A stretch of DNA of 26,200 nucleotides from a virus. Position 1 is the stretch's first letter. The number at the start of each line of letters is the position of its first letter. Positions 1-22,907 of this stretch are shown here, one piece after another. The notes under the pieces are model-generated. The model worked only from the letters and a program-made list of their open reading frames with translations. It was not told where the DNA came from and ran no database searches. Position numbers and translations under genes: made by a program. The DNA lies in the IMG/VR virus record IMGVR_UViG_3300009151_000325, positions 1 through 26,200 of that record. One strand, given 5' to 3'.

Positions 1-3000
1 ATTTCCAAATGTAGTGCCAACAAAGTAAACAGGCAATCCTTGATAGAATCCATTTGTTCCGCCTAATCCGCTAGTTGTTAATGGAACTGTAATTGTATTT
101 GTTACTGATTGTGTTTGTGTTACGGTTAAAATATTTGGATAATTTATAGTTACAATTGCGGTGTTTAATACCTCACCTACAATTGCTGCAACTCCTGAAC
201 TAGGAGCAGTAGCAGTTGTTAATGTAATAATAGTGTATGCAGTACCTGTACCTGTGCCTGCTCCCGAGGCAGTGAATATTGTTCCTAATGTATTACTTGA
301 TGCACCGATTGATGTAAAGTCAGTAGTTCCCAAACTATCAATAATATATTTTGTACCGTTGACGAAACTTACTGCATTAGTAGTAGCAGTATCATTTGAT
401 ATTGCAAAACTAGTTAGGTCAAATATATAAGAAACATAATATTCAGTACTAACTGTAATTCCACCAAATGAGACTCCGGCAAATTTTATTGGCATCGTGC
501 TATAAAATCCTGTAGTTGGACCTAAATACTCAGTCTCTAATAATCCACCTTCTGACGGTGATATAATTATACTATAATTACTAGCAGATGTTGAATCTAC
601 TACACGTGTTCTTGATGACCAATTTATTATTTGATCATTAGCTACACTTTGTATTTCAAATGTTATTCCTTGTGAACTTGCAAGAACTAAAGAAACAGGA
701 GCTTGTGAATAGTTTCCAGTTGATTCAAGTTTAATGGCTGAACTCGCAATTTGTGTGCTATTGTTAAATAATCCTGCAAAGAAACTTCCATAAAATCCTG
801 CCGGTGCCCAATCAACAACTTGTGAAGTGTAAGTAGTTCTATCAAATCGTAGTGTTATTTGATTTTCACGAATAGGTAATGATGATACAATTCCTATTGC
901 TCTTGCACTAACAGAAATAATATTATTACTTCCCGAACCTAAATCATAAAGTGCAACACTATTTACATTTTGTATACAGTCTGCATATGTAGTATAGAAT
1001 GAAATTACATAAATTGGTGATGTTTGTAATACTGCAATATAATAATATTGTCCTACAAATAATCCACCTATTGCAGTTGTATCACTACCAATAGTATATT
1101 GTACTAGATCGCCTGTTTGTAATAACTGATTTGAAATGTATACAGTATTTTGTTCTAAATTAATATTAGTACTTGAAAACGTAACTATAATACTAGGTGC
1201 TACTACTATTTCAGGAGTAACAACATAACCATCACCGGGATCAACTACATCAATACGTAATAATGAATCAAGGTTCATTACTGGTTGAAGTATAGCCTGT
1301 CTTCTAGGTGGAGGATATATAGAAGTATCTATGTATGCAGTAACTTTAGGAGGTTCTAAATATCCTCTACCGGCGTCTAATACTACAACAGGTGACAAAT
1401 TAGTATAAATTAATTCTCCTGGTATATGCGGAACAACTACTGTTCCATTAACACCACGAGTCAATCCTGAAATAATATTTGTTGCTATATCTACGCTAGA
1501 ATAACCAATTTGTTCTTGACCAATAGTTATTATTCCATTAATAGGGAATCCATATATATTATTAACATACATTGAATTAATATTTAGTGACACATATGAT
1601 TGTAATGCAGCGATGAGATAATTTTGATTACCGGTTAATGATACACCAAAATTGTTAAACCATTCACTATACGTATCAATACTCCATATACTTGATGTAG
1701 GTAAGTATTCATTTATGTTATTTGGATTTCTATATACTAGTTCAGGTGTAATATATTGTTCTACAGCAGTATTATATGTTGCAGGCAAATCAAAATCAGT
1801 GAAGTTTGCTTTATAAACATCCGTTCTTTTATATTCAAACAAGAAGTCTTTTATAACTACATGATAGGGCTTTATCTCATTCAAGTAACCACTTAAGAAT
1901 TGTTGGTTATCAGATTGAAATACTTGTAGAGGTAATAATTCACGTATAGTATGAGATACATCAACAAATGAAGTTTTATTTAACCAAGGAACATAATTTT
2001 GTGTTTCAATAGTTTCACTAATAATATATTCAAATAATAAAATTAATGCTTTATTACGGAAAATTAATAAATCATTTGGTAATTGTTCACATATTCCTCT
2101 GACAATCCATTTTGTTTCTTCGCTTGGGTAAGTATCAAATGGTGTTGTGTCAAAGAAATTATTTCCAAATCCTAATCCGGCGGCGGCATAATCCCATAGA
2201 GAACTCTTAAATTGAACAGTTCCATATTGTAATCCTATTCGTATCCATACACCGGCTTCATATAGATATGTTTCTTCTAAACCCTGTGGATTAGAAGCAA
2301 CAGTAGCTATCATACCTTCATATGCATTTACATATGCTAGTTGATAAAATCTATCAACTAGTATAGCGGCTCTGGTATTATCGCTATATCCAGGTGCCCA
2401 CCAAGTAACAAATTCCCAATAGTCTTGAACACTATAGAATGATTGTCCTGTTGAAGGATTAGTAGGTCCTACTAAGAATAAGAACGTAGCATTAAATTCT
2501 AATGCCGGTATTGTAATCAAAAGAGCATTTACAAACTCAAAGAAATTTTTCAAAGCATTAAATCTATTATAGAAAAAACTTTGTCTTGGTCTTACTAAAA
2601 TACCACTTTGTACTGCTTTAGGTAAGAATGGATCTGGTACAACACTACCTGAATCGTCAACCCCTGATAAACTTTCTAATAATCTATTATATAATGATAT
2701 AGGTGTATTTATACCGGCTGTTCCCGGTAACCCTGGTAAAAAGTCATCAGCATAATTAGCACGAATTAAACTATATACGCTATGGTCAATATTGTCTGTA
2801 AATCCTGTTGCATATCCAATATGTAATACTGAATCAACTTGTAATATATACTCTCCGCAATTATATAAACCAAATATGTTTGGTTCTAATGGTGTTAGAT
2901 ATGCAATGCCAGTAGCCTGTGGTTGTGCAATATATGATTCACATATTGAGTCGGATAATGTCTTTCCTTCTTTTGTGAATACTATGTTTGTGTTTCTTAC

Positions 3001-6000
3001 CCAATAGAAATATATGGGGGTAATTGCACCTGTGCTACTTTGAGTAAATTCAATTACATAATCATCAATACTGTAAGGTGTTCCGGGTCCTGTATAATCA
3101 ATCGGTAAAGAATCACTTGTGACCCAACTATAAACTTGCACATCACTTCCTGGGAAAACTCTACCCCACCATTTACTATTATATGACACACTATCATTTT
3201 GATGGTAATTTACAAATTTTACTCTTGATGTATTAAACCATAACTTACCAAGTTGTCCTGCACCCCAAATTAATTTACCCGGGCTTGTAGTATTAGGTGC
3301 GTTGTATGAAGCTGGATCTATTGTCGCAACTACATTAATATTTTGACTAACAACACCTAATAGTTTTCCTTGTAATGGGTCAATATAATCAAGGTTGATT
3401 AATGTATTATTAGTTGAAGCACTATAAATTTGAGTATTCTGTATTGAATTAATATCTGCTACTAATCCTGAATTACGGAATACTTCCCAATCTTGTACTC
3501 CGGATGCATTCTTATAAACAATAACTTGTCCACTTACACTATTAGGTAAGAAATTAGGAGTACCTATAATAACATTATTACTATTAAAATCAATGGCTGT
3601 ACCATAATAAGGTTGATATCCATAATCAAAATCAAGCGAGTTTACACTTTGTGCATATACAAATGAACCTGTATTTGTTATTGATTCACTATAAACACCT
3701 AAGTAGTCAAACATATAAACTGCACCTGCATTAGGACATTGGTCAATAAATTGAGTTGTATTATTATCAAACAACGTATCATTTGTATAATTTATATCAT
3801 CAGTCATGTCAAAGGTAGTATCTTCAAAACGTGTTCCAACAGGAGCACTTACTACTAATGAACCATATTCATTTAATTTTACAACCTTACCAAACTGTGT
3901 TCTAGATTCTGGGTGAGGGTTAGATAACACCTGTGTTTTAGTATAGGGTAATATTCCTAATTGACCCCAAATATTAGAATCAGTAACCATGACAGTTAAT
4001 TTATCGTTAATGTATGCTACATTTGAATCTTTAACACTTATTGTTAATATTCCATTTAATGCTGACGCAGTTACATTATTAATATTTGCACTAATAATTT
4101 GTTGTGCGACAGATGAAGCATCGCCCGGAATTAATGATACAATATATCCATTAATTAAAATAACTGAGTTTGATATGACTTGACAAGTTGATGTACCGAT
4201 TACTACTCCGTATTTTCCACCACTATTAGTATAACGATATACATTACCTTCGGCACCATCTTGTAATTCAAAAGGTGAACCAATTAATAATTCATTTCCA
4301 TAATTATCAAATTCTAAAGAATATCCAAACTGACATTGTTCATTGATCGGTGCATCTGAAGAAAGTTGTTGCGATTGTACAAAATATGATCCACTAATAA
4401 CTATAATACTACCTATTGCAAAAGAACCGTATAAATTAAAAGTATCTCCTATTACGCTATATGTACTATTGCTTACATCAGTACCATTAACTGATACGAA
4501 AATAGGCTCAATTTGTGCTACTGCACTCATTGTCCCTGATGCAGTTGATACCTGAAACGGTATTATACTTCCAAAAGTAGTTGTTATTGTAAATTCAGTA
4601 GAACTGTCAATAGTTAAAATATAATATACTGTATTTGCTGATACTCCACCAAACAATGTTCCAGTAAATACAACAGGCATTTGTAATGAAAGACTACTAG
4701 TTGTAGTTGTAGTAAACTTATCTGTTGCAGAATCAGTTGCAGTTATACCTAATGTAGATGTGCTTGGTGAGAATGCTAATGGTGTAGATAACGGTACATA
4801 CGGTGTACTCGCAAATGGTGCTTCAAACGTTTGAACTAGTCTATCAAATACATATGCATAACCATAATTACTAACACTTAATGAAGAGGCTTTATTAGGT
4901 GCACTAATAGTTACTGTATCTCCGTAATAATTAGTAGTAATTGAATAACCAAAATTATCACCTGAAACTAGTGATAGTGTTGATAATGATTTTGAATATT
5001 CGTATAAGTCAGTAATTGCTGATTTTCTATAAACATAAACTAAGTTTTGTTCATATGCTGAAATATATAACCAATTTGTATCACCTGAAACTGCAACGGC
5101 TGATCCCCAATTAGTAACTCCAGATGGTGCTGATATTGTTTGAATTAATTGAATCTCATTTACAAATTGATTATTAATTAATTCATAAATTCTTACAGAT
5201 GGACTTGTGATTGGTTGAGAAATAATAATTAAATTATTATTATAGGTTATTGTTGATCCAAATGAACTAGATCCAGTTAAAGTTTGTGATATATCATATC
5301 GTTTGAAAACTGGATTATAGATATATCGGTATACTTCACCTAATCCAGCATCAGAAATTAAATACCCTATATTATCAGTATATGCAACTGCACTACCAAA
5401 TGTGACTGAATCTATCTTTGTGATTTCATTGTCATAGGCATAATTTATTGACTTCTGATATACAGCCCAACCACTGTCACTATTTACATCTACCCATACT
5501 TTGTTTTTTACGAATTCTGTATTTAAAAGGTCTAGTGTATTAATTTGATTAGGTGATGCAACTCTTTGTGAGTCAAATTTAATACCAATTCCCAAACCAG
5601 TTATAGTTGTTATAGTTGATGGTAAACTTAATACAATTGTCACGCTGTGCGGGTCAACAACTGAACTAACTATTCTATATCCATCAACTACACTATTAAA
5701 ATTAATTACACCAAATGGTTGATATTTTGTAAGATTATGCGGTTGAGCAAATCTCAATGTTACTGTATTATTTAAATTATTAACTGCAAAAACAATAGTT
5801 CCTAAACTTGTGGGTGAATAGATTTGCCAAGTGCCTAAGTATTCTGCTAACCATAAAAATTCACCAACATATAATTTAGTAATAGGAACTATAGCAGTAT
5901 TCAATCCATCATAATAATATGAAAATGTTTTAACATCATTAAAATTTACATATCCTGCATCAGATAACAATACAGAAGGTATACCAGATGATACTGTTGG

Positions 6001-9000
6001 TAAAATGTTTGGATCTGATATAGGCCTTCCATAATTGAATAATGAATATAATTGAACTTCTTGTTCAACACCATCAGTAAAATAACCATTTGTCAATCCT
6101 ACAATAGCAGGATTGCCTGTCAATAAAGGTTCACTAAGTTTAAAATCAACAAAATTGTTATTTAATACCCCGCCAAACTCACCTGTTTTGATTGCCCAAT
6201 TCTCATAGATATCATAATCAATTCCACCTTGTGGTAATGTTAATCCTTTAAATGCATTTGCTGCAACTCTAGTTCCTTTAGTCTTAATCATATTCTTATA
6301 GACATTAACTTGTGTTATATCTGTAAGGTCGGCTAAAGCCAAATAATCTCTAGGACGATATCCAATTAAAGACCAACTTAATAAATCAGCATCATTATCT
6401 AAGTTTTGTTTATTAGTATCATAAAATAATGTACTCTCATATGAACGTGTGCTTGAGTTGGGTAACATTCCCTTTTGAATTTCATTATAATTAGTTTCTT
6501 TCCAATTTGATGGTTGAAATACAATTGATGGATTAATTACTTTTAATGCAGACCAATATTGATTTTTAAATAAAACAATAGATCCTTTAGTGTATTTTAC
6601 AGTTGGACTCCACTCTTTAATATTATCTTGATTTAATATAAATCCTTGTGCATCCATTGTACCGTTCCACTCAGCAGTTTTTACACCACGTAGGAAAATT
6701 CTATCTTGTTTTAGTCCGGTAGTTAAATTATATATTATGTCATTAAACAAAGTAACATTATTAAACACTATGCCATTTTCAATGTTACTAATATTAAACT
6801 GTCCGTATGCAACTGTATCACCTTCATTTAAAGGTTTAGCCGTAAATAATGTACCATCACGTACTACACTTAAGTCAACCGCTTGTATAGGATATAAATT
6901 TTGATTTAATATAAAGTTTTGTTTTTGTAAAGTTAATGGTTGTACAATATAACTATCTTTGTTGATAGAAATAATATTTGCTCCAGGATTTAAATTAACA
7001 ATACTTCCTGTTTCCCATCCTGATTGAATCCAATATAAGAATTCAGCAATCATTTGTTTCCAATTGACATCTAATCCAGATTCAATTTGATCAAACAATA
7101 CACCCTGTGTTAGTAAATATGTTCCGTAACTATTTAAAAATTGTGATAACTCTTGTGCTGAATAGAATTCAGTACCGTATGGTATTATTTCAACCTTATC
7201 TAATGAATACTCTTTTGCAATTTGCACCGAAAGTTTATCAACAGTAACTATTGAATAATTTCCATTTATCTTTGGTCTAACTGCTTTAAAGAATGCATTT
7301 GATTGTGAATTACCAAAAATTCTCCACCCATCTGCTGTACTTTGAATGATAACACCACTGAATACAATTTGAGTAAATGGTACATTATCATACAATAATA
7401 CACTATAACTCTCATTAGGAATCAACAATGATGCATTATTACTATTAGGTGTGCCTTTCTCAACGTAGAAGTTGAGTAATGTTTTATCACTAAATCCCGC
7501 TAGTCTATAAATTAAACGAACATCAAGGTTAGATAATAGATTAGTTATTGACTCTGTTGCATCTACACCAAATTGTTTTTCATAATCAACAATCCAATTG
7601 ATATAACTTGTTTTAGGAATACCTGAACCATAAACTTGAATATCAGAAATTATTAAATGATTTCTATCATTAACTAAGAATTGGTTAAACTCAGTATTAT
7701 ACTTATAGTTATCAACATCAACACCCAAGTTAAAGAAGTTTGCTGGTTTTGTTAATGCTAAAATTTTCATTAAATCAAATGGCCATGAACTACTTCTACG
7801 ATAACTAAATTCAGTAGGTCCTACATCTCCCACTTTCCAATCACGTTTAAATGTATTTTGACTAAAGTTACTAACAACGCTATAGAAAGGTGACACTAAA
7901 TTACCATCACTATCAACTGGTAAAACATCTAACAAACCAGGTCTAATACATTGTTGTATTACTACTGGATTACCATTATTCCAATTAATACCCGCTGATA
8001 AGTCACCCCATAAAATTAAGTTATCACTTGTATAAGGTGCCGCACCATATCGTGATTCCCACCATGATGGTTGATCTGTAAATCCTATCATTTGCCAAGG
8101 TGCAACATCAGGTTGTGAGGTATCATACATATATTGATATATACCTCTCCAGTATCCTTGTTGGATAACTGAACCATCTAATTTATTACTTGATTGATTA
8201 TAATTATATGTAAACTGATTATTTGCAATATATAATTGCTGTTTATAATCTACACGATTTTGTCCTACCCAATTTAAAAAGTATTGTGAGTAAATTTCTA
8301 ATATATCATCATATGAGTAATCAGTTGTTCTAAAGAATCCTGGAATAACATCATAATCTCTAATAGGAATAATATCACTTAATTTAAGATTATTATAAAT
8401 GCGTGTTTCAAATTCAAATAAAACTTTATCACGGAAATCAATTAAATGTCCATCAATATAATCACCATATAATTTATTATATGAACCATCATGTCCAACA
8501 ATAAAATATGTTGGTTGTAAATAATTTGAATCTAATATAACAGTAGGTATCCATGAAGGATATAAACCTAATTTTGTTGGGGTATTTGGAACATAAGTTC
8601 CGAATGTTTGATTGTATTCATTAATTGTAATTATGTCACCGGCAAGTAAATCATAGGTAACAGTAAGTGACGGGGAATCTGTACTTACAACATAATCTTT
8701 ATTAATTACTAATTGAGTTTGAATATCATTTCTTGTTAGATAAACTAAAACACCATTATAATTTGCAGTATTGTAATTATAAATTTGTATTAACGGATAA
8801 ATGCTAGTATCTAATGAGTTAGCAAATGTATATGAGTTAGTTGTATATGGTGCTTTTGATGGCAACATATCACTCCAAAAGAAAGGACCAGTATCAACTT
8901 TACTTGATGTTATGACATCCAATGCTTCATCTAGCATTACTGCCGGTGTTTGATAGTATGTATAATCTGTACTGTTTACTGTGTTAACTAATAGATTTTT

Positions 9001-12000
9001 AAAAATAACATATTGTTGACTATTATATTCTAATGAACTGAATAAATTATGATTTTGTTGACGTAAGAATGTTCCGGGTAAAACTAATGAGGCACTATTT
9101 TGTATAATGCTATTTCCCCAAGGAACTAGATTTCCTAAATCTCTATAGTTATTTGGGCCAAATACTTGTCCTGACGTATTAGGATTATTATAAAAAATAC
9201 TTAGATACTGCCTTCTAATATCACCTACGTCAACTGTAGTAATATCATTATTAAAAGGATTGTTACTTAAATTAACCGGAACTTGATAGAATCCCTGTAC
9301 ACTAACTTGGTCACTAATAATAGAAATTTGAATAACAGTATCTACTGTTGGATCCGGAACAGAGAAAGTTACTATAGTTGAAGTATCTGAAACAATGTAT
9401 GTATAATCAGTTGATGGTTGTAAATCATTATTTACAAATAATTGAATATTAGGCCAAATTGTTTCAGACAACGGTAAAGCTGCTACATCACAAACAAATG
9501 TTGTTGTAGGTGTGTCTGCATAATAATTAAAATATAATATTTGATATTGTGTACTTGGGGCAACTGTTGTTTGCCAACCTAATGTTTTACCATATGTTAC
9601 AGATCCATCAGTGTTTACTAGATTAACTACATAACCTACATTTACATTTTCTGTAATTGGTGTAGTTCCATTAACATAACTAAATGTTTCCGAGTTAAAG
9701 GTCACATCAAAACTTATATCACCTACATTAGTTATTGAGCTATATTTTAAAGGAAATCCTAATACTATATCGTTTATTCCATATCCAACCCCATATGCAA
9801 ATAATTTACTTCCTGTAAATGATGTACCTGCATAAACAACTTTATTTCCAAGACTGATGTTATTATAATCTACAATATCAAATAACGGTGGTTGATTAAT
9901 TGTAGTTTTTTGTTGTGCTTCTATCCAATCAGTTCCATCAAAATAAAAATCTTTTCCTTGATTATTATAACCCTTAAATGCAAATACACCTTCTTCTGGT
10001 AACACTAATCCATTCTCAACTTCAGTTAATGTTATAACTGGAGTTGAAGTTCCGGTTATACTTGTTAAACGTGCAACGTAAATTTTATTTCTAACTTCAG
10101 CATTTGTATCTGATGCAAAAACTATTCTTGCACCATCATATATTGAATAATCATCATTAGATAATGTATTAGCAATTAATGCTACGTTTGATGATGAACT
10201 AATAGTGGTTGAAAATGTCCAATAAACAACTATAACTAATGTAGTTGATCCACTAATTGAATATATTTGTGCATTTCTAGGTAAGATACTTAAATTATCA
10301 GAAATGAATTGGTTAACCGCAAATGTTCCTGTTACATCACTAGCAGCAACTTCAACTGTGGTATATGTTTGAGCGGTAGCAGTTCCAGATCCCTGAAAGG
10401 CTGTACCGTTTCCTAAACCTATTCCAGTAGCAGTAAAGGTTACCCCTATTGTATTTGATGCTGCACCAATTGCCACAAAATCAGTATTACCCACAAACAC
10501 AATAGTATATGAATCACCTATCACAAATGATCCGGCAAGAGTTAATCCTGTTGATGTTGCTGTAAATATTGTTCCTACAGTATTTGAACTTGCACCCAAT
10601 AAAGTAAAATCAGTAGTACCTAATGTCGTAATTTCATATTGTTGTCCAATGATAAAAGATCCGGCTGATGTTATTGGACTTGCATTTATTGTGGCAGTAT
10701 ATTCTGTATATACTTCAACATCGGGATAATATATTTCTTGTCCGGCAACTTGAAGGAATGCATCAGTTGTTCTAGTATCTAAAAAGTCAATAGGTAATTT
10801 TCCTACGATAGCATTATTAAATAATTTTAAGTTTGGATAAAATTCAATAATAGGTCTTTTTGCCTTATTATTTTTGGTAGCATATATAGTAGCAATAGCT
10901 GGATTATTTAAATATGATGCAGTTGCATTGATTACATCAATATGGAACCAACGATTACTACGACTCCATGGATTTCTATCAATACTATCTCGTGCAATAG
11001 TAATATAATCTTGTTGCACCGGTATATATAATGTACTATCCCAATTGTCAGTATCATATGGTAATACATCAAACGGTGAATATGCACCTTCTGTAAATAA
11101 TTCAGGTACAATCAAATTAATTGTATCAATTAATACAATTGCAGAACCTACTCCTTGTACATAGTATTCACCTGATTTATAACTAGTAGGAACAACATCA
11201 CCACTAAAAGTTACTTTTAATCCGTTAGTAAAAACTATTCCGTTAGGTCCGGTACTATAAGTTGGCTTTCCTAAAATATCACGAACAACATTAATTTGAT
11301 TAGTGTAATTACTATCAATTAATTTAATGATTCCTACTTTATCAGCCGTAGAACCATCTTGATAATATAATGTATCAAGTATTGAACTTAGATATGGTAT
11401 TAGAGTAATAGTACCTTGAATATTTCTATAGAAATTTCTTGCTCTCCATTGAACACCATAATTTATTGTAATCTTTTGTTCATTAGGTACTATTCCATAA
11501 CTGTTTAATTGTATTGTAGGATTTGATTCAGAACCAGTATATTCAATAATATATATATTTGATGAGATATCTAATGGGTTACCATCTACACCGGGAGTTT
11601 GACCATAAAATAAAACAGTGAGTCCATTTAATGATGTTACTCCGTCAATATCAATTAAGTCACTTAATAATACACCATTTACTTGATTGTATGGTACAGC
11701 TGCAACAACATCAATCTCAATGTTGCCAGGAAAATTATATTCAGATTGTGAATCTGTATAAGGAACATTGAATGTGACTGTCCCTGATGTTGCACCATTA
11801 TTGTCCACACCTAATACATCACGTGTTTGAATATTAAGTTGTTGTGGATCTAAACCAGTAACTCCTGGTTTGCCTTGAATCCAAAATGATGATGTTTGAT
11901 TTACAGCAAATGTATATGTACCACCGCGAATAAGTGTTAGTGTTGGGTTTGTAGTGCCTGTAGGATTTACATCACTTGAAATATTATATCCGTTACTAGT

Positions 12001-12483
12001 ATCATCCACTGTATAAGATGTTGATGTATAGATAATACCTGCTGAAATATTAACTGAGGGAGGTCCTTCAGGTAACCAATAATATTGATTGAAGTTAATT
12101 AGTTTATCTAAATCAACAAACGGATCCCATGAATAGATTTGACTATTGAATAGTCTATCATTGTTTTGTGCTAGTCCACCTTGATATGTAATACCATCAA
12201 CAATACCTGGATAAGTAACAAAATCAGTTGCTAATGATGTATTTGTTTTTGTAAAAACTACACCCGGGTCTAATTGATAATCGGTTCTTGTTTTTGTTGG
12301 TTCAACAACATAATTATCTTTAGCATTTATACCATAACCAAATTTACTACCTACATAGCCCTCAATAGGCATAGTATTAGGTTGATCTACTATTTGGTCT
12401 AACGTTGCACTTAAAAATTGTGCGTTAGTTACGGTTTGAAAAACTTCTGGTAAAAAGTTTAAAGTTCTAATTCTTGCTGCCAT
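1..12483 (-). CDS. Giant baseplate/tail structural protein, partial (4161 codons, no stop in window)
   Basis: The frame opens at an ATG (12481-12483) and I saw no in-frame stop to the window edge, so the protein exceeds 4161 residues and its C-terminus is missing. It directly follows gp6, where T4 has gp7 (about 1030 aa) and gp8-gp12, so a peripheral baseplate wedge or fibre-like role is inferred. Landmarks by residue: N-terminus with TLNFLPEVFQT; cupredoxin-like module about 176-241; two tandem 43-residue modules 608-695; GHDGS at about 1330; chitin-binding-like W/Y/G/W motif 1958-1996; seven FG-GAP-like repeats about 2355-2990 with inserts; EIKPYH near 3537; more adhesin-like beta modules after 3750, including a third 43-residue copy at 4040-4082. 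Composition is rich in N, T, S, Y, V and I, typical of beta-rich phage adhesins. The N-terminus resembles giant structural proteins I recall from marine T4-like phages. A weak AGAGAG and a late box precede the start. The reading frame is certain; the exact virion role is not. Confidence 0.95.
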   Translation of the reverse strand, partial: MAARIRTLNFLPEVFQTVTNAQFLSATLDQIVDQPNTMPIEGYVGSKFGYGINAKDNYVVEPTKTRTDYQLDPGVVFTKTNTSLATDFVTYPGIVDGITYQGGLAQNNDRLFNSQIYSWDPFVDLDKLINFNQYYWLPEGPPSVNISAGIIYTSTSYTVDDTSNGYNISSDVNPTGTTNPTLTLIRGGTYTFAVNQTSSFWIQGKPGVTGLDPQQLNIQTRDVLGVDNNGATSGTVTFNVPYTDSQSEYNFPGNIEIDVVAAVPYNQVNGVLLSDLIDIDGVTSLNGLTVLFYGQTPGVDGNPLDISSNIYIIEYTGSESNPTIQLNSYGIVPNEQKITINYGVQWRARNFYRNIQGTITLIPYLSSILDTLYYQDGSTADKVGIIKLIDSNYTNQINVVRDILGKPTYSTGPNGIVFTNGLKVTFSGDVVPTSYKSGEYYVQGVGSAIVLIDTINLIVPELFTEGAYSPFDVLPYDTDNWDSTLYIPVQQDYITIARDSIDRNPWSRSNRWFHIDVINATASYLNNPAIATIYATKNNKAKRPIIEFYPNLKLFNNAIVGKLPIDFLDTRTTDAFLQVAGQEIYYPDVEVYTEYTATINASPITSAGSFIIGQQYEITTLGTTDFTLLGASSNTVGTIFTATSTGLTLAGSFVIGDSYTIVFVGNTDFVAIGAASNTIGVTFTATGIGLGNGTAFQGSGTATAQTYTTVEVAASDVTGTFAVNQFISDNLSILPRNAQIYSISGSTTLVIVVYWTFSTTISSSSNVALIANTLSNDDYSIYDGARIVFASDTNAEVRNKIYVARLTSITGTSTPVITLTEVENGLVLPEEGVFAFKGYNNQGKDFYFDGTDWIEAQQKTTINQPPLFDIVDYNNISLGNKVVYAGTSFTGSKLFAYGVGYGINDIVLGFPLKYSSITNVGDISFDVTFNSETFSYVNGTTPITENVNVGYVVNLVNTDGSVTYGKTLGWQTTVAPSTQYQILYFNYYADTPTTTFVCDVAALPLSETIWPNIQLFVNNDLQPSTDYTYIVSDTSTIVTFSVPDPTVDTVIQISIISDQVSVQGFYQVPVNLSNNPFNNDITTVDVGDIRRQYLSIFYNNPNTSGQVFGPNNYRDLGNLVPWGNSIIQNSASLVLPGTFLRQQNHNLFSSLEYNSQQYVIFKNLLVNTVNSTDYTYYQTPAVMLDEALDVITSSKVDTGPFFWSDMLPSKAPYTTNSYTFANSLDTSIYPLIQIYNYNTANYNGVLVYLTRNDIQTQLVINKDYVVSTDSPSLTVTYDLLAGDIITINEYNQTFGTYVPNTPTKLGLYPSWIPTVILDSNYLQPTYFIVGHDGSYNKLYGDYIDGHLIDFRDKVLFEFETRIYNNLKLSDIIPIRDYDVIPGFFRTTDYSYDDILEIYSQYFLNWVGQNRVDYKQQLYIANNQFTYNYNQSSNKLDGSVIQQGYWRGIYQYMYDTSQPDVAPWQMIGFTDQPSWWESRYGAAPYTSDNLILWGDLSAGINWNNGNPVVIQQCIRPGLLDVLPVDSDGNLVSPFYSVVSNFSQNTFKRDWKVGDVGPTEFSYRRSSSWPFDLMKILALTKPANFFNLGVDVDNYKYNTEFNQFLVNDRNHLIISDIQVYGSGIPKTSYINWIVDYEKQFGVDATESITNLLSNLDVRLIYRLAGFSDKTLLNFYVEKGTPNSNNASLLIPNESYSVLLYDNVPFTQIVFSGVIIQSTADGWRIFGNSQSNAFFKAVRPKINGNYSIVTVDKLSVQIAKEYSLDKVEIIPYGTEFYSAQELSQFLNSYGTYLLTQGVLFDQIESGLDVNWKQMIAEFLYWIQSGWETGSIVNLNPGANIISINKDSYIVQPLTLQKQNFILNQNLYPIQAVDLSVVRDGTLFTAKPLNEGDTVAYGQFNISNIENGIVFNNVTLFNDIIYNLTTGLKQDRIFLRGVKTAEWNGTMDAQGFILNQDNIKEWSPTVKYTKGSIVLFKNQYWSALKVINPSIVFQPSNWKETNYNEIQKGMLPNSSTRSYESTLFYDTNKQNLDNDADLLSWSLIGYRPRDYLALADLTDITQVNVYKNMIKTKGTRVAANAFKGLTLPQGGIDYDIYENWAIKTGEFGGVLNNNFVDFKLSEPLLTGNPAIVGLTNGYFTDGVEQEVQLYSLFNYGRPISDPNILPTVSSGIPSVLLSDAGYVNFNDVKTFSYYYDGLNTAIVPITKLYVGEFLWLAEYLGTWQIYSPTSLGTIVFAVNNLNNTVTLRFAQPHNLTKYQPFGVINFNSVVDGYRIVSSVVDPHSVTIVLSLPSTITTITGLGIGIKFDSQRVASPNQINTLDLLNTEFVKNKVWVDVNSDSGWAVYQKSINYAYDNEITKIDSVTFGSAVAYTDNIGYLISDAGLGEVYRYIYNPVFKRYDISQTLTGSSSFGSTITYNNNLIIISQPITSPSVRIYELINNQFVNEIQLIQTISAPSGVTNWGSAVAVSGDTNWLYISAYEQNLVYVYRKSAITDLYEYSKSLSTLSLVSGDNFGYSITTNYYGDTVTISAPNKASSLSVSNYGYAYVFDRLVQTFEAPFASTPYVPLSTPLAFSPSTSTLGITATDSATDKFTTTTTSSLSLQMPVVFTGTLFGGVSANTVYYILTIDSSTEFTITTTFGSIIPFQVSTASGTMSAVAQIEPIFVSVNGTDVSNSTYSVIGDTFNLYGSFAIGSIIVISGSYFVQSQQLSSDAPINEQCQFGYSLEFDNYGNELLIGSPFELQDGAEGNVYRYTNSGGKYGVVIGTSTCQVISNSVILINGYIVSLIPGDASSVAQQIISANINNVTASALNGILTISVKDSNVAYINDKLTVMVTDSNIWGQLGILPYTKTQVLSNPHPESRTQFGKVVKLNEYGSLVVSAPVGTRFEDTTFDMTDDINYTNDTLFDNNTTQFIDQCPNAGAVYMFDYLGVYSESITNTGSFVYAQSVNSLDFDYGYQPYYGTAIDFNSNNVIIGTPNFLPNSVSGQVIVYKNASGVQDWEVFRNSGLVADINSIQNTQIYSASTNNTLINLDYIDPLQGKLLGVVSQNINVVATIDPASYNAPNTTSPGKLIWGAGQLGKLWFNTSRVKFVNYHQNDSVSYNSKWWGRVFPGSDVQVYSWVTSDSLPIDYTGPGTPYSIDDYVIEFTQSSTGAITPIYFYWVRNTNIVFTKEGKTLSDSICESYIAQPQATGIAYLTPLEPNIFGLYNCGEYILQVDSVLHIGYATGFTDNIDHSVYSLIRANYADDFLPGLPGTAGINTPISLYNRLLESLSGVDDSGSVVPDPFLPKAVQSGILVRPRQSFFYNRFNALKNFFEFVNALLITIPALEFNATFLFLVGPTNPSTGQSFYSVQDYWEFVTWWAPGYSDNTRAAILVDRFYQLAYVNAYEGMIATVASNPQGLEETYLYEAGVWIRIGLQYGTVQFKSSLWDYAAAGLGFGNNFFDTTPFDTYPSEETKWIVRGICEQLPNDLLIFRNKALILLFEYIISETIETQNYVPWLNKTSFVDVSHTIRELLPLQVFQSDNQQFLSGYLNEIKPYHVVIKDFLFEYKRTDVYKANFTDFDLPATYNTAVEQYITPELVYRNPNNINEYLPTSSIWSIDTYSEWFNNFGVSLTGNQNYLIAALQSYVSLNINSMYVNNIYGFPINGIITIGQEQIGYSSVDIATNIISGLTRGVNGTVVVPHIPGELIYTNLSPVVVLDAGRGYLEPPKVTAYIDTSIYPPPRRQAILQPVMNLDSLLRIDVVDPGDGYVVTPEIVVAPSIIVTFSSTNINLEQNTVYISNQLLQTGDLVQYTIGSDTTAIGGLFVGQYYYIAVLQTSPIYVISFYTTYADCIQNVNSVALYDLGSGSNNIISVSARAIGIVSSLPIRENQITLRFDRTTYTSQVVDWAPAGFYGSFFAGLFNNSTQIASSAIKLESTGNYSQAPVSLVLASSQGITFEIQSVANDQIINWSSRTRVVDSTSASNYSIIISPSEGGLLETEYLGPTTGFYSTMPIKFAGVSFGGITVSTEYYVSYIFDLTSFAISNDTATTNAVSFVNGTKYIIDSLGTTDFTSIGASSNTLGTIFTASGAGTGTGTAYTIITLTTATAPSSGVAAIVGEVLNTAIVTINYPNILTVTQTQSVTNTITVPLTTSGLGGTNGFYQGLPVYFVGTTFGN
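238..366 (-). repeat. TDFT module, distant third copy (giant protein)
   Basis: Residues about 4040-4082 read GTKYIIDSLGTTDFTSIGAS, then SNTLGTIFTASGAG and a GTGTGTA end. It is the same length as the tandem units near 10.5 kb, although about 3,400 residues away. This suggests shuffling of a module inside one protein. Confidence 0.8.
376..495 (-). repeat. Adhesin-like module with MPIKF...FGG...YY signature, copy 2
   Basis: Residues about 3997-4036 carry MPIKFAGVSFGGI followed by STEYYV, matching the pattern of the copy at 4561-4680. It stands directly before the third 43-residue TDFT module, so two module types are joined here. Confidence 0.6.
3514..5421 (-). repeat. Seven FG-GAP-like repeats in the giant protein (probable beta-propeller)
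   Basis: Each repeat reads roughly (F/W/Y)G-x-(A/S)(V/I), then a turn, then a hydrophobic strand ending in (I/V)(S/G)xP, then G-x-V-x-(V/R)-Y/F. The FG-type pairs fall at residues 2362, 2408, 2459, 2511, 2719, 2864 and 2960. Examples are FGYSI...TISAPN...YAYVFDR (fourth), FGYSLEFDNYGNELLIGSP (fifth) and YGTAIDFNSNNVIIGTPN (seventh). The first four are 46-52 residues apart, the usual FG-GAP blade spacing. Larger gaps hold insertions: about 155 extra residues between blades 4 and 5, 95 between 5 and 6, and 45 between 6 and 7. Integrin-alpha and related FG-GAP repeats form seven-bladed propellers, and seven are present here. The calcium-binding D-x-D-x-D-G loop is degenerate. The fold is inferred from the pattern. 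Confidence 0.75.
4561..4680 (-). repeat. Adhesin-like module with MPVVF...FGG...YY signature, copy 1
   Basis: Residues about 2602-2641 of the giant protein carry MPVVFTGTLFGGV, a TVYY pair and STEFTI. The pattern MPxxFxGxxFGGxxxxTxYY recurs at 376-495. The module lies in the insertion between propeller blades 4 and 5. I recall similar sequences in many marine phage tail proteins; its function is unknown. Confidence 0.6.
6496..6612 (-). other. Chitin-binding (CBM5/12)-like motif in the giant protein
   Basis: Residues about 1958-1996 read EWSPTVKYTKGSIVLFKNQY, then WSALK, and close with PSNWKE. This follows the W-x(5)-Y-x-x-G-x-x-V-x(5)-Y-x-A ... P ... W layout of small carbohydrate-binding modules of the chitin-binding type 3 group, with Trp at about 1959, 1979 and 1994. 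Sugar binding is inferred; a coincidental match within a beta-rich protein is possible. Confidence 0.45.
10399..10533 (-). repeat. TDFT module, tandem unit 2 (giant protein)
   Basis: The unit starts GSFVIGDSYTI and contains GNTDFVAIGAASNTIGVTFT, ending in a Gly-rich GLGNGTA. It is the downstream member of the tandem pair (residues about 651-695). Such modules are common in tail proteins of marine T4-like phages as I recall them. A small beta-rich spacer or adhesin domain is likely. Confidence 0.8.
10534..10662 (-). repeat. 43-residue TDFT module, tandem unit 1 (giant protein)
   Basis: The unit starts GSFIIGQQYEI and contains GTTDFTLLGASSNTVGTIFT. It is followed without a gap by a second unit with exactly the same 129-base period. 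The two share the frame GSF-(I/V)IG...G-x-TDF-xx-(L/I)GA-x-SNT-(V/I)G-x-x-FTAT, but their bases differ at many sites, so the duplication is old or under amino-acid constraint. Confidence 0.8.
11761..11958 (-). other. Cupredoxin-like beta module near the N-terminus of the giant protein
   Basis: Residues about 176-241 contain NPTLTLIRGGTYTFAVNQ, an SSFWI turn, NNGATSGTVTFNVP at the end, and a spacer between. The layout, a strand with a RGGTYTF turn and a closing GTVTFxVP, is the one I recall from cupredoxin-like modules in phage and archaeal surface proteins. The His and Cys copper ligands are not visible, so metal binding is not expected. Confidence 0.4.
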
Positions 12484-12506: not shown

Positions 12507-12514
12507 TATTTATC
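12507..12514 (-). promoter_or_regulatory. Late promoter box GATAAATA for the giant gene
   Basis: The minus strand reads AGGATAAATAAG. The TAA inside the box is the stop codon of gp6 (12510-12512). The box ends 23 bases before the giant gene's ATG, which fits a T4-type late promoter with a leader of about 17 bases carrying AGAGAG. Confidence 0.7.
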
Positions 12515-15500
12515 CTATCTGTAATTGCACCGGTGTAAGTGCTGCAATTACAACCACATCATTTGATGTAGCACCATTAACAAAAATCTCATATGGTGCT
12601 GATTTAATTTCATACAAATCACCAAACCTCATAGTTGGATCATTTGGTACTAACACGATTGAACTTACTAAATCTGTTAATGATGAATGTAAATATGCAC
12701 TCAACTCCGAGAAGTAAAATGTATCTCCAAAATTCCAATTATTTATATTGAAATAATTATTCATTGCTGTCAATACTGCACTACGTATTTCACTATCACT
12801 TGCATTAGTTGACATAGATTTAATTACTTTAATTGTTCCCTGTAGTTGTTCAGCGGCCTTTGAACCAAATAACGGTACAAAGCGGACGCTATTAGGAATA
12901 AGACTATCAGTTAACATTTTAAAATCATCTAATGCTCCGTAAGCCTGTTGTAATTCATCAATAGTAGGGACATTAGGTATAGGAACTGTGCCTGTAGTAT
13001 CTTGTATCCAATTTTGATACGCTGTATAATATGCTTGTGTAACCAAATATAAATCAATAATATTTGTAGTAGCCGGATCAATACGTGTGGTATTATTTGA
13101 ATTGTGTCTATATTGAAATTCTAGACCCTGTCTTCCATATTGCATTAAATATTGCGGTTGTTCTACTGTCAAATAATATGGAGTTAATACTGCACTATCC
13201 TGAACAGTTGTATAGAATTTATTTTCAGAATATGCATAAAAGAGTTGTCCTAATGGATAATCATATTTAACTAACTCAATACTTGATTGTGTTGAATATT
13301 GGTATACAACATCAGTTGATGGTATCAATTGATATCTAGATAAGTTAACTGCATCCTGAATTAATTCAAAGAAAGCATACACACCTACATTAGCACCACC
13401 ATTTTGAAAGCCGGTGACAATTGTAAAGAAATCAGGATCTAATATTACATCAGTATTATTAACATCAATACTAGCAACTTCAACTTCAAAGTCATTTACA
13501 TAACCGTCACTTTCAATTGTTTGACCTATTACACTAACTTTTATTGGGTTCGCTAATGGATAGTTACTAGTTGGTTGTGTATTAACTGCTAAAACTTTAA
13601 CATAGTCTGCAAGAATTTTACCAGTAAACGGATCATATACTAATTTACCAGTTTCATACCAAAATCTATTATCTGAAACACTACCAAAATAGTAACGTAG
13701 TGATTTATAAGAAATTGAATATTTGTTCAATCCAGTTGAATTGAAGTTCACAAACCATCCTGTAGCATTATATGCTGCTACACTCCAGCGATCCTGTCCT
13801 ATAGTTAATGCATTATTAAATATTAATGAAAAACTTTGATTAAGTTCCATACGTGTAACAACTTCATTTTGCACAACTGTAGGTAATGTATTTTCAAATA
13901 CAGGAATCACCTGAACTAATGTTACACCATTTGGAACGTAGGCATTTAATGCTATTGGTCCTGTACCGTTTGCAAAATCACCTAAACCATTATTATAACC
14001 ATCACCTATTACACTTAATACGCCTGTCCAAAAGAATGTAGTATCTGATGGTCCTGCTAATCCAGCCACTAATCTATTATTTTCATCAAAGTAATATCCT
14101 AAAGGTGCGATGAATTTTAACAATGCTCCTTTAGTTACATACTTAACATTATGTGTTGAATAAGTTCCAGTTGCTATAGGTGTTTTTACATTGCTAGGTG
14201 TAGTATATAAATATCCAGTAACACTATTTGACGCTACAGTACTTGTGTTCCAATATACAGTGCCATCACCAGTTGAAACATTAACATCATATCTAGGATA
14301 ATTTTGTAGATAATATTGTTTTGCTCTATTGTTTGCTAACGCTATTGATAAGTTATTTGATAAAAATTTAATAATGTCGCCTACATCTACAATCGTTAAG
14401 AGTAAATAACTATCATCACTATTTTGATATAGTCCGCCGTCGGCTGAGAATGTGTTTGTACTTGAATATTTTCCAGTTGGATCTAATAAATCTAAATTTT
14501 TACTTACACCAACTGAACTACGATTAACTGCTTTGCTTTTAATAATTGAACTATATAATGTATATGGGAAATTGTTATAGTCTTCACCATTAACCATTCT
14601 GTTTTGAGTATAGTAACGAGCAGGGGCACGTAGTTTAATGTTAGCCAATGTTTCTCTTGCCTGTGCAGTTGATGCAGGTAACTGCAACTCTAGTCCTATA
14701 GTGAGTGCTTCTGTTTTACCTACTCTATTAATATACTGAATTGTTACACTGACCCCTTGCATTTCTGTAGGGTCAATTGTATAAGTTAATGCATTACCTG
14801 CACGAACATATGCTCTAAATGTTCCTACCGGAGCCTCAGAGAATACGCCATCACCAAATGAATAACTTACTTGGTCATTAAAACGAGATATTACTGAAAA
14901 TACTTTTTTATTTGATGTTGTTTTACTTAATGTTGCATTTGCATAAACACTATCAACTTCTTTCCAAAGTGTTCTTGCACCATTATTTACGTTAAGTTGA
15001 TATAACCATGTGTCTGTATTGTTGATACCTTGAATATCAACATCTACTACTTGATTTGAAATTTGTTGTGCTAAATTAAAATCATAACTTTGTAATGTGC
15101 CTTGTTTAAAATAAAAGAAGAAACCTGTATTTGGGCTTCCATATCCTAATTTGTCATTACGATATACCATATTAAATTTACCTGTCGGGCCAGGTGGCAA
15201 TTCATATACATAATCTTCATTGACACTAGTTACAGAAACTAATTCAAAATTCATATTAATATTATCTACAGTTGATGTGAATGGGACTACTGGTAATGAG
15301 TTAGGTGGTATATTGATTGAATATTCGTCTGTTTTAACTCCTAATATTTCTTGTGAGTTTCCTGGACGTCCAATACGTTGACTATTGATTAAAGATGCAT
15401 TTATGATTGTGTTAAATTGTTCTAACCAATTTGCATTTGCTGGATCATTCCAAAGAACAGTTTGGTTACTTAAATTAATACCATTTAAATCTATAATGTT

Positions 15501-15881
15501 TTCCGTAGTTTTGATACTAGTTACCTTAATATAACTTTGACCAGTTATATTACGTTTTGGATTATAACTAACTAGATTTGCTAGTTTAATAACACTATCT
15601 CTACGTTCAGCAGTATCAATAAAATTTTCACGGGTATTTAAATCATTACGGAAGGCCAGTCCCTGACCCATGTATGCAATGATATCTAGTAGTGCGATAA
15701 ATTCACTAGATTCAATAAAGTCATTGAAGGTTTCAGGATAGTATACACGCAAGTAGTCAATAAAACTCTTGCGTAGAGTTTCGTAGTCGTAACTTCTAAA
15801 GTCGGCTTCACGAAATGTCTGGTATATTGCTTGCCAGTCATTTACGCCGAATAATGCAGATTGTCTTGAACTTGTAGCCAT
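12510..15881 (-). CDS. 6: Baseplate wedge protein gp6, enlarged
   Basis: T4 gp6 is the wedge protein whose dimers form the inner ring of the baseplate. This 1123-residue protein is recognisable by an N-terminal wedge segment (SFIDYLRVYYPETFNDF at about 39, then FIDTAERRDSV near 87-97), a baseplate-J-like core with YSFGDGVF at about 340, APARYYTQNRMVNGEDYNNF at 419-438, and a C-terminal part with NWNFGDTF and the SAPYEIFVNG end. T4 gp6 is about 660 residues, so the extra length lies mostly after residue about 480, before the typical C-terminus. The ATG is preceded by AAGAGAA and a late box. It sits between gp25 and the giant protein, matching wedge-gene clustering in T4-like phages. Identity as gp6 is well supported; the role of the extra segment is unknown. 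Confidence 0.88.
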   Translation of the reverse strand: MATSSRQSALFGVNDWQAIYQTFREADFRSYDYETLRKSFIDYLRVYYPETFNDFIESSEFIALLDIIAYMGQGLAFRNDLNTRENFIDTAERRDSVIKLANLVSYNPKRNITGQSYIKVTSIKTTENIIDLNGINLSNQTVLWNDPANANWLEQFNTIINASLINSQRIGRPGNSQEILGVKTDEYSINIPPNSLPVVPFTSTVDNINMNFELVSVTSVNEDYVYELPPGPTGKFNMVYRNDKLGYGSPNTGFFFYFKQGTLQSYDFNLAQQISNQVVDVDIQGINNTDTWLYQLNVNNGARTLWKEVDSVYANATLSKTTSNKKVFSVISRFNDQVSYSFGDGVFSEAPVGTFRAYVRAGNALTYTIDPTEMQGVSVTIQYINRVGKTEALTIGLELQLPASTAQARETLANIKLRAPARYYTQNRMVNGEDYNNFPYTLYSSIIKSKAVNRSSVGVSKNLDLLDPTGKYSSTNTFSADGGLYQNSDDSYLLLTIVDVGDIIKFLSNNLSIALANNRAKQYYLQNYPRYDVNVSTGDGTVYWNTSTVASNSVTGYLYTTPSNVKTPIATGTYSTHNVKYVTKGALLKFIAPLGYYFDENNRLVAGLAGPSDTTFFWTGVLSVIGDGYNNGLGDFANGTGPIALNAYVPNGVTLVQVIPVFENTLPTVVQNEVVTRMELNQSFSLIFNNALTIGQDRWSVAAYNATGWFVNFNSTGLNKYSISYKSLRYYFGSVSDNRFWYETGKLVYDPFTGKILADYVKVLAVNTQPTSNYPLANPIKVSVIGQTIESDGYVNDFEVEVASIDVNNTDVILDPDFFTIVTGFQNGGANVGVYAFFELIQDAVNLSRYQLIPSTDVVYQYSTQSSIELVKYDYPLGQLFYAYSENKFYTTVQDSAVLTPYYLTVEQPQYLMQYGRQGLEFQYRHNSNNTTRIDPATTNIIDLYLVTQAYYTAYQNWIQDTTGTVPIPNVPTIDELQQAYGALDDFKMLTDSLIPNSVRFVPLFGSKAAEQLQGTIKVIKSMSTNASDSEIRSAVLTAMNNYFNINNWNFGDTFYFSELSAYLHSSLTDLVSSIVLVPNDPTMRFGDLYEIKSAPYEIFVNGATSNDVVVIAALTPVQLQIG

Positions 15882-15936: not shown

Positions 15937-16386
15937 TTATTGAATAGTTGCTGTATTGGTCAAATTATTGAAAAAAACATTCATTATTTGAGCACTATTG
16001 AAGGGTGCAACCGCTAACTCTACTTCAATTAAAATTCCGTTATCTTGTGGGTAAGATTTGACGGTATTTATAATTAATCTAGGATCTTGTTGCGCTACAC
16101 GTTGTATTTCATTTTGAATTCTAAATTGAGTATCAGCATTATTCTGTTCAAAAATATATGACCACAATGTGGTTCCATATCCTGGATTTCCTACCTTCTC
16201 ACCCTGACGAATGTTTAATGCATTAACTAAATCTTGTACTACTAAAGGAGTATCAACTAAACGATACTTTTTACCTAAAATAATTGGCTGGACTATCCCG
16301 CCATTTCCACCGTCAACTCCGGGAGTTGCTCTAGTAGTCTTGGGTTTATTTGCATTAATTGTGCTGAATCCGATATATGTGGTCAT
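15937..16386 (-). CDS. 25: Baseplate wedge protein gp25
   Basis: This 149-residue protein belongs to the gp25 family of sheath-nucleating wedge proteins (T4 gp25 is 132 aa; type VI secretion TssE is related). Family marks are the N-terminal YIGFSTIN seen in marine T4-like gp25, LNIRQGEKVGNPGYGTTLW (the R-x-G-E-x-x-x-x-P-x-x-G-x-x-L-W pattern), I-x-x-E-I-x-R-V near the middle and DPRLIIN. I chose the ATG at 16386, which gives MTTYIGFST; the further upstream opening at 16410 is a TTG inside the gp5 coding end and adds eight unrelated residues. There is no Shine-Dalgarno sequence before the ATG. The gp5 stop lies 10 bases upstream, so re-initiation after gp5 is plausible. Confidence 0.92.
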   Translation of the reverse strand: MTTYIGFSTINANKPKTTRATPGVDGGNGGIVQPIILGKKYRLVDTPLVVQDLVNALNIRQGEKVGNPGYGTTLWSYIFEQNNADTQFRIQNEIQRVAQQDPRLIINTVKSYPQDNGILIEVELAVAPFNSAQIMNVFFNNLTNTATIQ

Positions 16387-16390
16387 AATG

Positions 16391-16398
16391 TATTTATT
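16391..16398 (-). promoter_or_regulatory. Late promoter-like box AATAAATA before gp25
   Basis: The minus strand reads TTAATAAATACATTATG. The box takes two bases of the gp5 stop codon (16397-16399) and ends only 4 bases before the gp25 ATG. With usual late-promoter geometry transcription would start at or just inside the ATG, so this would give a leaderless message, or the box is not used for gp25. Confidence 0.45.
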
Positions 16399-19300
16399 AA
16401 GTAGAAACAATAAAGTCTGTCAATTCGTTTGATTTTTTTATAAACGCAGATTTTTCTTCATAGTATTTCTTTCTGGCTTCTGCAATTCCTGGATCTCCTT
16501 CAGGTAAATTATTAACAGCAGTCTCATATGCTGTTTTTGCTTCTATTGCAATTTGATATTGTGCATCTGATGCTTTACTCAATACTGCTTTTTGTGCTTC
16601 TCTTTCTTGCAATTTTGCAGTTTCATTTTGAAAGTATGAAGCTATCGGAGATGAGTAATTGGGGGCTGGAATCTTTGTACTTCCTAAAACAGATGCAATA
16701 CTAGTTGTTATGCTACTTCTATCAGTTGTGTTAGTTGCTACAGTGGGTAACTTAATAGCAGACGGTCCACCTGAACTTAATGCTGCAATAGCCGCATTCA
16801 ACCCTACCATTGCAGTAGGAGATAATCCAACTGATGCTAATGCTTGTAATGAAGATCCTGGTTTCTTTAACTCTGCTAACAATGAACTTGCAGAACCACT
16901 TAAACTTCCTGTATTCACCGCAGCAGTAATACTAGATATGGCTCCTGTTATTTTACTTGCGCCTGGAATTGTGTTTAATGCTTTTACTCCATTATCAACT
17001 ACTGACGCTATTGATGATCCGCCACCTGGTAAATTTCCTATTCCGGTTGAAGTGTTACCTGGAAGAGTTGCATTTAGAGTAGAAGTTGCAACCTGAGTTG
17101 CTTGTGTAGATGGATCACCATTTAATTCTCCGGGTAAAGGAGGAGGTAGTCTTGATAATATAATAGGATCACTAGGATCTGCGTTGCCCAACCATTTTAA
17201 TTGACTTGGTGTTAATTCTGAAGTTGATGTTGCTGTACTTAACTGACTTCCGGTCGCCGAAGATGATTCACCTGATGCCAATGATATAGCCTTTGAACCT
17301 AAGTTAGATATTGTTGTGCCTGCTGATTTTGCCGCATCTGCTATAGTTGATCCGGCTGATTGTGCTACTGCTACTGCTTTATCTACAATCTGTTTTAAGT
17401 TTTGTGGTTCACCTGCTTTTAGTTTAGGAAATCCATTAGTTACTGCGGCAAATGCTGCTCCTGCAAGACCTTTTGCAGATTCTAATAAACTAGTTACACT
17501 TGAGAGTGGGTTCTTTGCTAATCCACTTAATGAACTAGTTAATGAACTTAGTCCACCTGTTATATTTGTTGCTAGATTGGCTGCAAAATTACCAGAAGAA
17601 ATATTATTTGCAACTGAACCAAAGAAGCCACTAATTGGCGCAGATAGACCTAATCCTGTACCTACACTACCTAATGTTTTAGTTGCGTTTGTTACAAATG
17701 AAACTGTACTTGCTACACCTATTGATGTTGCCGCAGTTATTAATCCTGCTACTTGGCTAGGTGCTTCTTTACCTGTTATTATACCTGCTTGAGTTAATCC
17801 TGATTGTGCTTTCTGAAAGTTAGCAACTTGTGTATTAACTTGTGCTAATGGATTATTTTGGAATGCTGATAAGTTTTCTGCTCCTGGTTTACCAGTAAAC
17901 ATATTTGTAGATAATGCTTTATCAATTGAAACACCTTGTTTAACTAGTGAACTTACTAATGCAGCTGAACCTGGTTTGATAACTCCTGCATTTTCTAATT
18001 GTTGCGGGCTTTGTGCTAATTGTCCTATAGCGGCTACTGGACCTGTTGCAGTATTAACTATACCACTTCCGGCAGAGATAGCGGCTGCGGCTGGCCCTGT
18101 TTGTGCAACTGCCGCTACTTGACTTACCATAGTAGCAGTTACATTTTTATCAAGTGTTCCACCTATTGCACCTGTTCCCGGAACAGTTGCTGCCGCAGCC
18201 GCACTAACCGGAACATCAGGAGTTGATGGTACAAAATTGTTAGTTGATGCTACTGCACTTGACGGTGCACTTGGGAAATTAGCATCAGCCGAATTATTAA
18301 CTTTTACATCTACCCCTTGATTAGCATTAGCCCATGGAGCATGAGCAGGTGCTCTACTTACTACACTTAACAACTTACCAGGAGCAGCAGCCCAACCCTT
18401 TGTACCATCAAATAATGTATCTGTATGTGCAATAATAGTAATAGGAGTAACTTCTTCTGGAGTAAATGATGAAGATCCTGTATTTAAATTAACTTTAGCA
18501 CCATTTACAAATGCATTTCCATCACCTGCTAATGACGCATCACCGCCTGTTTTTAAACTTAATGATCCTTTTGCATTAATACCAAACTTACCTAAAGTTT
18601 GTAATGCAAAGTCTGCACCTGTTCTCCAGTTTGTTTTTTCATCACTATTAACATTAATATTTTTACCATATATATTTAAATCATTTTTAGCATTAATGTT
18701 TATATTATTATCGGCATGTAAATTTAAATCACCCTGTGTTCTAATATTTACTGAGTTACTAGCGTACATATCAATAGTACCTTCTCTACCTAACTCAACC
18801 CATGATTGTCCATTAGCATGTATGATGAATAAACATTGGCCATCATCACTCATTAATATTTGATGTCCCAATGAACTTCTAATTCTAACTAGTTGATCCT
18901 TACCAGATATATCACCATCATCCATTACAACAGAATGTCCGCCTCTACGACTGATAATTTTTAATTGGTCTGCTTTTTTAGCATCTAAATTATCTTTAAT
19001 AGTAACATCATCATATCCACCGTCATATATTGGTCTACCTGGTGTGCTAACACCCCAGCCAACTCTTGATGGACTTTCACGTTGAGAACTAGTTCCTATA
19101 GCACCTCTTATACTATCACGTAACAATCCTTGTTGTGCTAAAATACTAGCCAAATAACTATGAACTGGTTTGGGTTGATCCCAAAATTCTAAACTTTTAT
19201 CAACTTTACTATTATTAGCATTTATGTTAGCAACTGGTAATCTAGTTGCACCACCGTATGCATTACTTTCACCATCATTCAATACAACAGTTTCTGATGC

Positions 19301-22595: not shown

Positions 22596-22907
22596 TTATA
22601 TTCCCAATACTTGTACTAGTGTAGAATTCTCTGGTAGATATATACCCGTACCAGTAGTAAAATCAAATAAAGGATCTGTCAATGCATTTGGATTTCTACT
22701 TGAGAATACCCACCATAATTTAGAATTAGCATATAAGTCAAATGCTAATAAATCAGGACGTAGATTATATGTAGATGTTATTAACCAATATCGGTCTGAA
22801 CTTAATTTTGGTATAGGTCTATCAACCCACACATCTAAGAATTTTTTATTTATAACACCTGTATTATTATACGGGCTAGTTGCAGGATATAATAAATTGT
22901 TTGCCAT
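22596..22907 (-). CDS. 53: Baseplate wedge protein gp53
   Basis: This 103-residue protein matches the gp53 wedge family. It has RYWLITSTYNLRPDLLAFDL, then YANSKLWWVFSSRNPNALTD, PLFDFTTGTGIYLP and a short hydrophobic end. The RPDxLAxDLYxNSxLWWVF pattern is LysM-like and characteristic. T4 gp53 is about 196 residues, so only the core is present. I place the start at the ATG at 22907, which overlaps the upstream stop as TAATG; a TTG two codons upstream (22913) is less likely because a strong GGAGGT (22916-22921) sits 8 bases before the ATG. The protein joins wedges into the baseplate in T4. Neighbours are the tail-tube junction protein and the hub-like protein, with direct coupling on both sides. 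Confidence 0.88.
   Translation of the reverse strand: MANNLLYPATSPYNNTGVINKKFLDVWVDRPIPKLSSDRYWLITSTYNLRPDLLAFDLYANSKLWWVFSSRNPNALTDPLFDFTTGTGIYLPENSTLVQVLGI

Follow-up and report, generated by a model that had tools for sequence, protein, structure and literature searches.

The analysed stretch, a 26.2-kb virus record (IMGVR_UViG_3300009151_000325, hereafter the window), carries a giant open reading frame (ORF; 1..12483, at least 4161 amino acids, truncated by the window edge) for a virion protein in the gene position of T4 gp7, which contains at a fixed slot a predicted seven-bladed FG-GAP propeller. Residue numbers are those of this ORF, and all features lie on the minus strand unless stated otherwise. 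The propeller and its inserts fill the slot (3466..5451, residues 2345-3006), which was placed using AlphaFold2, Foldseek, Pfam and a map of the slot across phages. It is preceded by a conserved core (5464..9294, residues 1064-2340), with 75% mean column identity over 36 relatives and matches in 85 cultured phage records, and followed by a conserved flank defined by flank comparison (1624..3465, residues 3007-3620). The core is matched in five stretches by the profile PHROG_10938 (“virion structural protein”, E 2.5e-239). In complete relatives on longer contigs (L090-L098), the giant is a single ORF of 5,705-6,462 residues, an extreme size among phage structural proteins.

The seven FG-type repeats that the initial annotation had read by eye were all found at their residues: 2362 FGSAV, 2408 FGSTI, 2459 WGSAV, 2511 FGYSI, 2719 FGYSL, 2864 FGKVV, and 2960 YGTAI. 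Blade profiles relate them to one another, since nine of the 21 blade pairs reach 67-96% probability and together link all seven blades, and the best score of a blade against a control profile is 4.6%. AlphaFold2 modelling of the propeller region with 63 sequences gave a confident propeller (predicted local distance difference test, pLDDT, 82; predicted template modelling score, pTM, 0.84), the strand list of which comprises seven four-stranded blades. In a Foldseek search against PDB, integrin-alpha heads rank first (E 3.7e-9), and a template modelling score (TM-score) of 0.70 was obtained on a complete seven-bladed WD40 protein. The closure of the ring is deduced from these fold scores together with the strand count.

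According to the AlphaFold2 strands and blade profiles, blade 1 spans 5275..5412 (residues 2358-2403), blade 2 spans 5131..5274 (residues 2404-2451), strands A-C of blade 5 span 4219..4341 (residues 2715-2755), blade 6 spans 3634..3906 (residues 2860-2950), and blade 7 spans 3469..3618 (residues 2956-3005). Blade 3 occupies 4978..5121 (residues 2455-2502), and strands A-C of blade 4, taken from the AlphaFold2 model, lie at 4819..4965 (residues 2507-2555) and contain the match to PF14312.

Of the FG-GAP/VCBS signal that the initial annotation proposed to look for, a part was recovered: in a scan of the region by itself PF14312 (FG-GAP_2) exceeds its curated cut-off (25.8 bits vs 23), and it matches 60 of the 63 relatives at E <= 0.01, while PF13517 has no match in the window record. 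The proposed integrin type likewise holds for the seven-bladed integrin-head fold but not for the calcium loops by which integrin-type FG-GAP repeats are defined: the motif D.[DN].DG (DxDxDG in the A-B hairpins of PF01839) does not occur in residues 2340-3006. A phmmer search of the propeller region against PDB gave no match, a profile search gave weak propeller matches only, and the lactonase propeller family PF10282 matches the region weakly, below its cut-off. Mean column identity in the propeller alignment is 45%, as against the much higher value of the core, and blades 5-7 are better conserved than blades 1-4. Taken together, sequence, structure prediction and comparison show residues 2345-3006 as one closed seven-bladed FG-GAP propeller, in the predicted model, occupying a fixed slot in the giant protein at the gp7 position.

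The last three gaps between the repeats were supposed to be enlarged by inserted adhesin-like modules. Extra domains do follow blades 4 and 5, but the third enlargement is a conserved loop of blade 6 with no adhesin module. The C-D loop of blade 4 carries module B, an 84-residue dispersed repeat without a Pfam family match (4501..4752, residues 2578-2661), and according to AlphaFold2 and conservation the adjoining segment 4363..4500 comprises two elements, a small beta module (residues 2662-2692, VSVNGT...) and then the blade's strand D (2693-2707). For blade 5, DSSP delineates in the C-D loop an alpha/beta insert of ~90 residues (3946..4215, residues 2757-2846), which is present in the aligned relatives and resembles by eye a hypervariable flagellin region, but has no Pfam match over the cut-off.

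To describe the turnover of these modules, their presence and absence was scored over 79 sequences, and changes were counted on the core tree. Module B is absent in seven sequences and doubled in one (L026), which corresponds to at least five changes. Module A, of about 50 amino acids (GxxYxIxxxGTTDFTxIGAxxNTxGxxFTAxGxGTGTGTA), sits in the C-D loop of blade 3 (site 2491) in 39 sequences, with at least eight changes, and just ahead of blade 2 (site 2402) in three relatives (L005, L006, and L012), with at least two. Both modules recur elsewhere in the giants. The module search revealed module A twice in the N-terminal portion of the window protein (10357..10674, residues 604-646 and 649-709), and near the window edge another copy (229-387, residues 4033-4085) beside a partial copy of module B (3989-4042; together 229..519). 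Full-length relatives have 9-14 copies of module B and 1-4 copies of module A. Matches to module A also occur in cyanophage S-TIM54 and in a Caudoviricetes sp. protein. The length of the ~50-residue insertions at 2402 and 2491 had suggested an eighth blade; this was rejected, as their sequence is that of module A and has no FG repeat. The FG dipeptides at 2611 and 2637 were also rejected as blades, both lying within module B. The expectation of a propeller with loop inserts in a baseplate-position protein was borne out, the inserts being variable among relatives.

The length of blade 6 is owed solely to its B-C loop (3736..3828, residues 2886-2916), which bears the signature TTFDxxxTxF. No other stretch is as conserved in the window clade as this loop (0.80), yet its predicted order in the AlphaFold2 model is the lowest. 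In about 40 widely diverged propellers carrying the signature, its Asp is found in 100% and the following Thr in 97%. The extended form TTFDxxxTxF...SGxVYVY (3715-3819, residues 2889-2923) is nearly invariant, including in the slots of loci L100-L178.

For mapping the slot, eight cultured phages were searched with core and flank profiles, as were 80 further loci found via the core alignment; these loci are the nearest to Pseudomonas phage 30-3 and so represent an uneven sample. Single proteins of cultured phages, used to scan viral contigs, had returned nothing except Atu_ph07 itself, whereas the core-alignment query did retrieve loci. The flank profiles are separated by 649 residues in the window, by 2 in phage 30-3 (PA5oct-like), and by 24-34 in RaK2, 121Q, XaC1, and Vibrio phage 2.275, so that the slot is empty or near-empty in these five cultured jumbo phages. 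In Atu_ph07, Phosso, and contigs L103, L106, and L108, it is filled by glycine-rich GxGY repeats. Repeats of the form GxGYxxxPxV, which likely form an elongated beta structure, occupy the slots of L103, L106, L108, L084, and L086 in other jumbo lineages. The slot of SCTP-2 (~280 residues) has a LamG-like appearance by eye, for which Pfam gave no match, and we do not claim this identity.

At least five FG-type repeats are present in the slot of 51 of the 64 uncultured loci having both flanks, and some of them (e.g. L140, L131, and L121) contain minimal propellers of about 400 residues. By tblastn, the cultured phages gave no match to the window propeller or to the minimal propellers of L131 and L107. 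On the core-column tree, a single branch with support 100 separates the 67 propeller rows from all 21 other rows; no shuffle gave as low a value for this split. A single gain is compatible with this pattern, and so is a single loss should the root of this unrooted tree fall within the propeller rows. We suggest a probable single gain of the propeller in the ancestor of a large uncultured clade, all sampled members of which have retained it.

The giant gene is a member of a baseplate gene cluster, and its product presumably takes a corresponding place in the virion. On the minus strand, a baseplate wedge subunit that is gp53-like by position (22596..22913, phrog_7145, E 5.9e-21) is followed by a structural protein, a gp5-like baseplate hub (16397..19720, phrog_13211, E 5.8e-36), baseplate wedge gp25 (15937..16410, PF04965 over its cut-off), a gp6-like baseplate wedge (12510..15881, phrog_10646, E 1.8e-258), and then the giant ORF. 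In T4, the gene order is 53-5-6-7, and because the gene after gp6 there is gp7, we treat the giant, which likewise directly follows gp6 in a gp53-gp5-gp6 cluster, as a gp7-position protein. Evidence from phAPEC6 supports the presence of a homologue in the virion: its gp245 (382 kDa), whose gene adjoins that of baseplate wedge gp244, was identified by mass spectrometry from 17 peptides (PMC7247149), and its matching size and place suggest that it is the counterpart of the giant. Divergent from the baseplate cluster, on the plus strand, are genes for a late sigma factor (24425-25324) and an SbcD-like nuclease (25441-26199), as in 121Q-type phages.

Baseplate propellers and viral FG-GAP proteins are already known, which makes the initial suggestion that no precedent exists too strong. 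The seven-bladed phiKZ gp131C and the five-bladed phi11 gp45 are described baseplate propellers proposed to contact the host (PMC4901313). The phiKZ gp131 C-terminal domain (PDB 4GBF, cited in PMC4901313) is alike in that receptor binding is suggested rather than proven, but it belongs to a separate protein, as opposed to the FG-GAP domain inside a wedge-position giant here, and it is absent among the best 50 PDB fold matches of our propeller. The Staphylococcus phage receptor-binding protein phi11 gp45 (PMC4901313) shares a propeller domain in a baseplate protein and recognises the host, but is a separate trimeric protein with five blades, the nearest fold of which is glutamine cyclotransferase, not integrin. 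The integrin alpha heads (e.g. 7nwl and 4wk2), being the best PDB fold matches, have FG-GAP repeats and seven blades, some with a domain inserted in the propeller; the phage propeller differs from them by the lack of calcium DxDxDG loops, by an identity of 10-11%, and by the kinds and places of its inserts.

Giant virion proteins of the RaK2/121Q/PA5oct/Atu_ph07 type (PHROG_10938) share the homologous core, the flanks and the gene order after gp6, but are of 3323-4555 amino acids and have the slot near-empty or with other material and no propeller. A similar propeller fold is predicted for the Atu_ph07 “hemagglutinin” A0A2L0UZX4 and the FG-GAP-like H6WG31 of cyanophage S-TIM5 (TMt 0.66 and 0.58), although these are free-standing proteins of ~400 amino acids, not embedded in a wedge-position protein. 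Within the viral library, the fold of the propeller is matched most closely by the unannotated uncultured Caudovirales protein A0A6J5L8L4 (E 1.3e-27, only a chunk being modelled), which is probably a homologue of the window giant. No FG-GAP propeller within a baseplate protein emerged from a literature search, which most subscription papers lay outside. What appears to be new is the FG-GAP type, the fixed slot, the giant wedge-position protein, the conserved loop, and the distribution over a single whole clade.

We suggest, with slightly more confidence than doubt, that the propeller was gained once in a fixed slot and is a scaffold for host contact with exchangeable loop modules and a docking blade-6 loop. 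Six copies of the propeller, one per wedge, would stand at the baseplate rim. The blade-6 loop, being nearly invariant, would serve for docking to a conserved baseplate partner or as a switch, and on the opposite face the C-D loops of blades 3-5 may show small exchangeable modules to the host surface. Receptor binding by the propeller is likely under this scheme, and we favour it for two reasons, namely that exposed loops accept and exchange domains and that the described baseplate propellers are proposed to contact the host.

Several observations weigh against this scheme. At site 2402, module A is carried by a D-A loop and shares a face with the conserved loop, which makes the two-face picture imperfect, and the assignment of loops to faces comes from general propeller topology, not from coordinates. 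We infer both where the giant sits in the virions of these phages and what it binds. Sequence homology to T4 gp7 was found neither in the core nor in the flank or propeller (hhalign probability under 1%). The Pfam families Gp7_helical, Gp7_5th, and Gp7_6th match T4 gp7 itself, not the window giant, and sequence and profile searches of the giant core against PDB, with 5HX2 as the gp7 reference, gave no credible match. The AlphaFold2 model of the core (residues 1064-2240, pLDDT 48) is too poor for a fold comparison.

A conserved propeller could equally be a protein–protein hub. As the main rival explanation, somewhat unlikely in our estimation, the propeller is an internal structural hub that uses the blade-6 loop to connect the wedge with other proteins of the baseplate or fibres, with the inserts being neutral passengers. 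The near invariance of this loop across diverged phages and the better conservation of blades 5-7 agree with such a role, and the viability of cultured relatives without the propeller could mean that it serves a lineage-specific partner. However, the loops repeatedly gain and lose modules of kinds found elsewhere in the protein, as expected of exposed parts, and unrelated material fills the slot in other lineages.

Many propellers are enzymes, and Asp and Thr abound in the conserved loop, which together with the weak lactonase-propeller match might indicate an enzymatic function, such as that of a glycan-cleaving domain for capsule or cell wall. We consider this improbable, since the top fold matches are integrin heads rather than hydrolases, PF10282 stays under its cut-off, and the predicted order of the conserved loop is low. 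Residues ~190-620 of T4 gp7 (L180:7061-10159), outside its Pfam domains, look propeller-like by eye and contain one conserved Asp-box, SNDKGQTW. That the propeller is the counterpart of one already present there, and hence no new acquisition, is the least probable explanation in spite of the shared gene position, given the lack of profile similarity and the near-empty slot in five cultured relatives.

Host-cell recognition by jumbo phages without cultured hosts is, to our knowledge, largely unknown. We tentatively propose, as a possibility short of even odds, that the gp7-position protein of jumbo phages has a dedicated host-recognition slot, left empty by some lineages and occupied in others, and that the capture of an integrin-type propeller on one occasion gave rise to a very large uncultured clade, which may change its host contact by turnover of loop modules while one loop is kept as a trigger or dock. 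The present case also shows an integrin-like head deployed within a protein of the tail machine that reaches about 6,400 residues. The core tree together with the TTFDxxxTxF loop provides a marker for the propeller clade, and the fixed slot with its module-exchanging propeller is a place to seek host-range determinants in hundreds of uncultured genomes.
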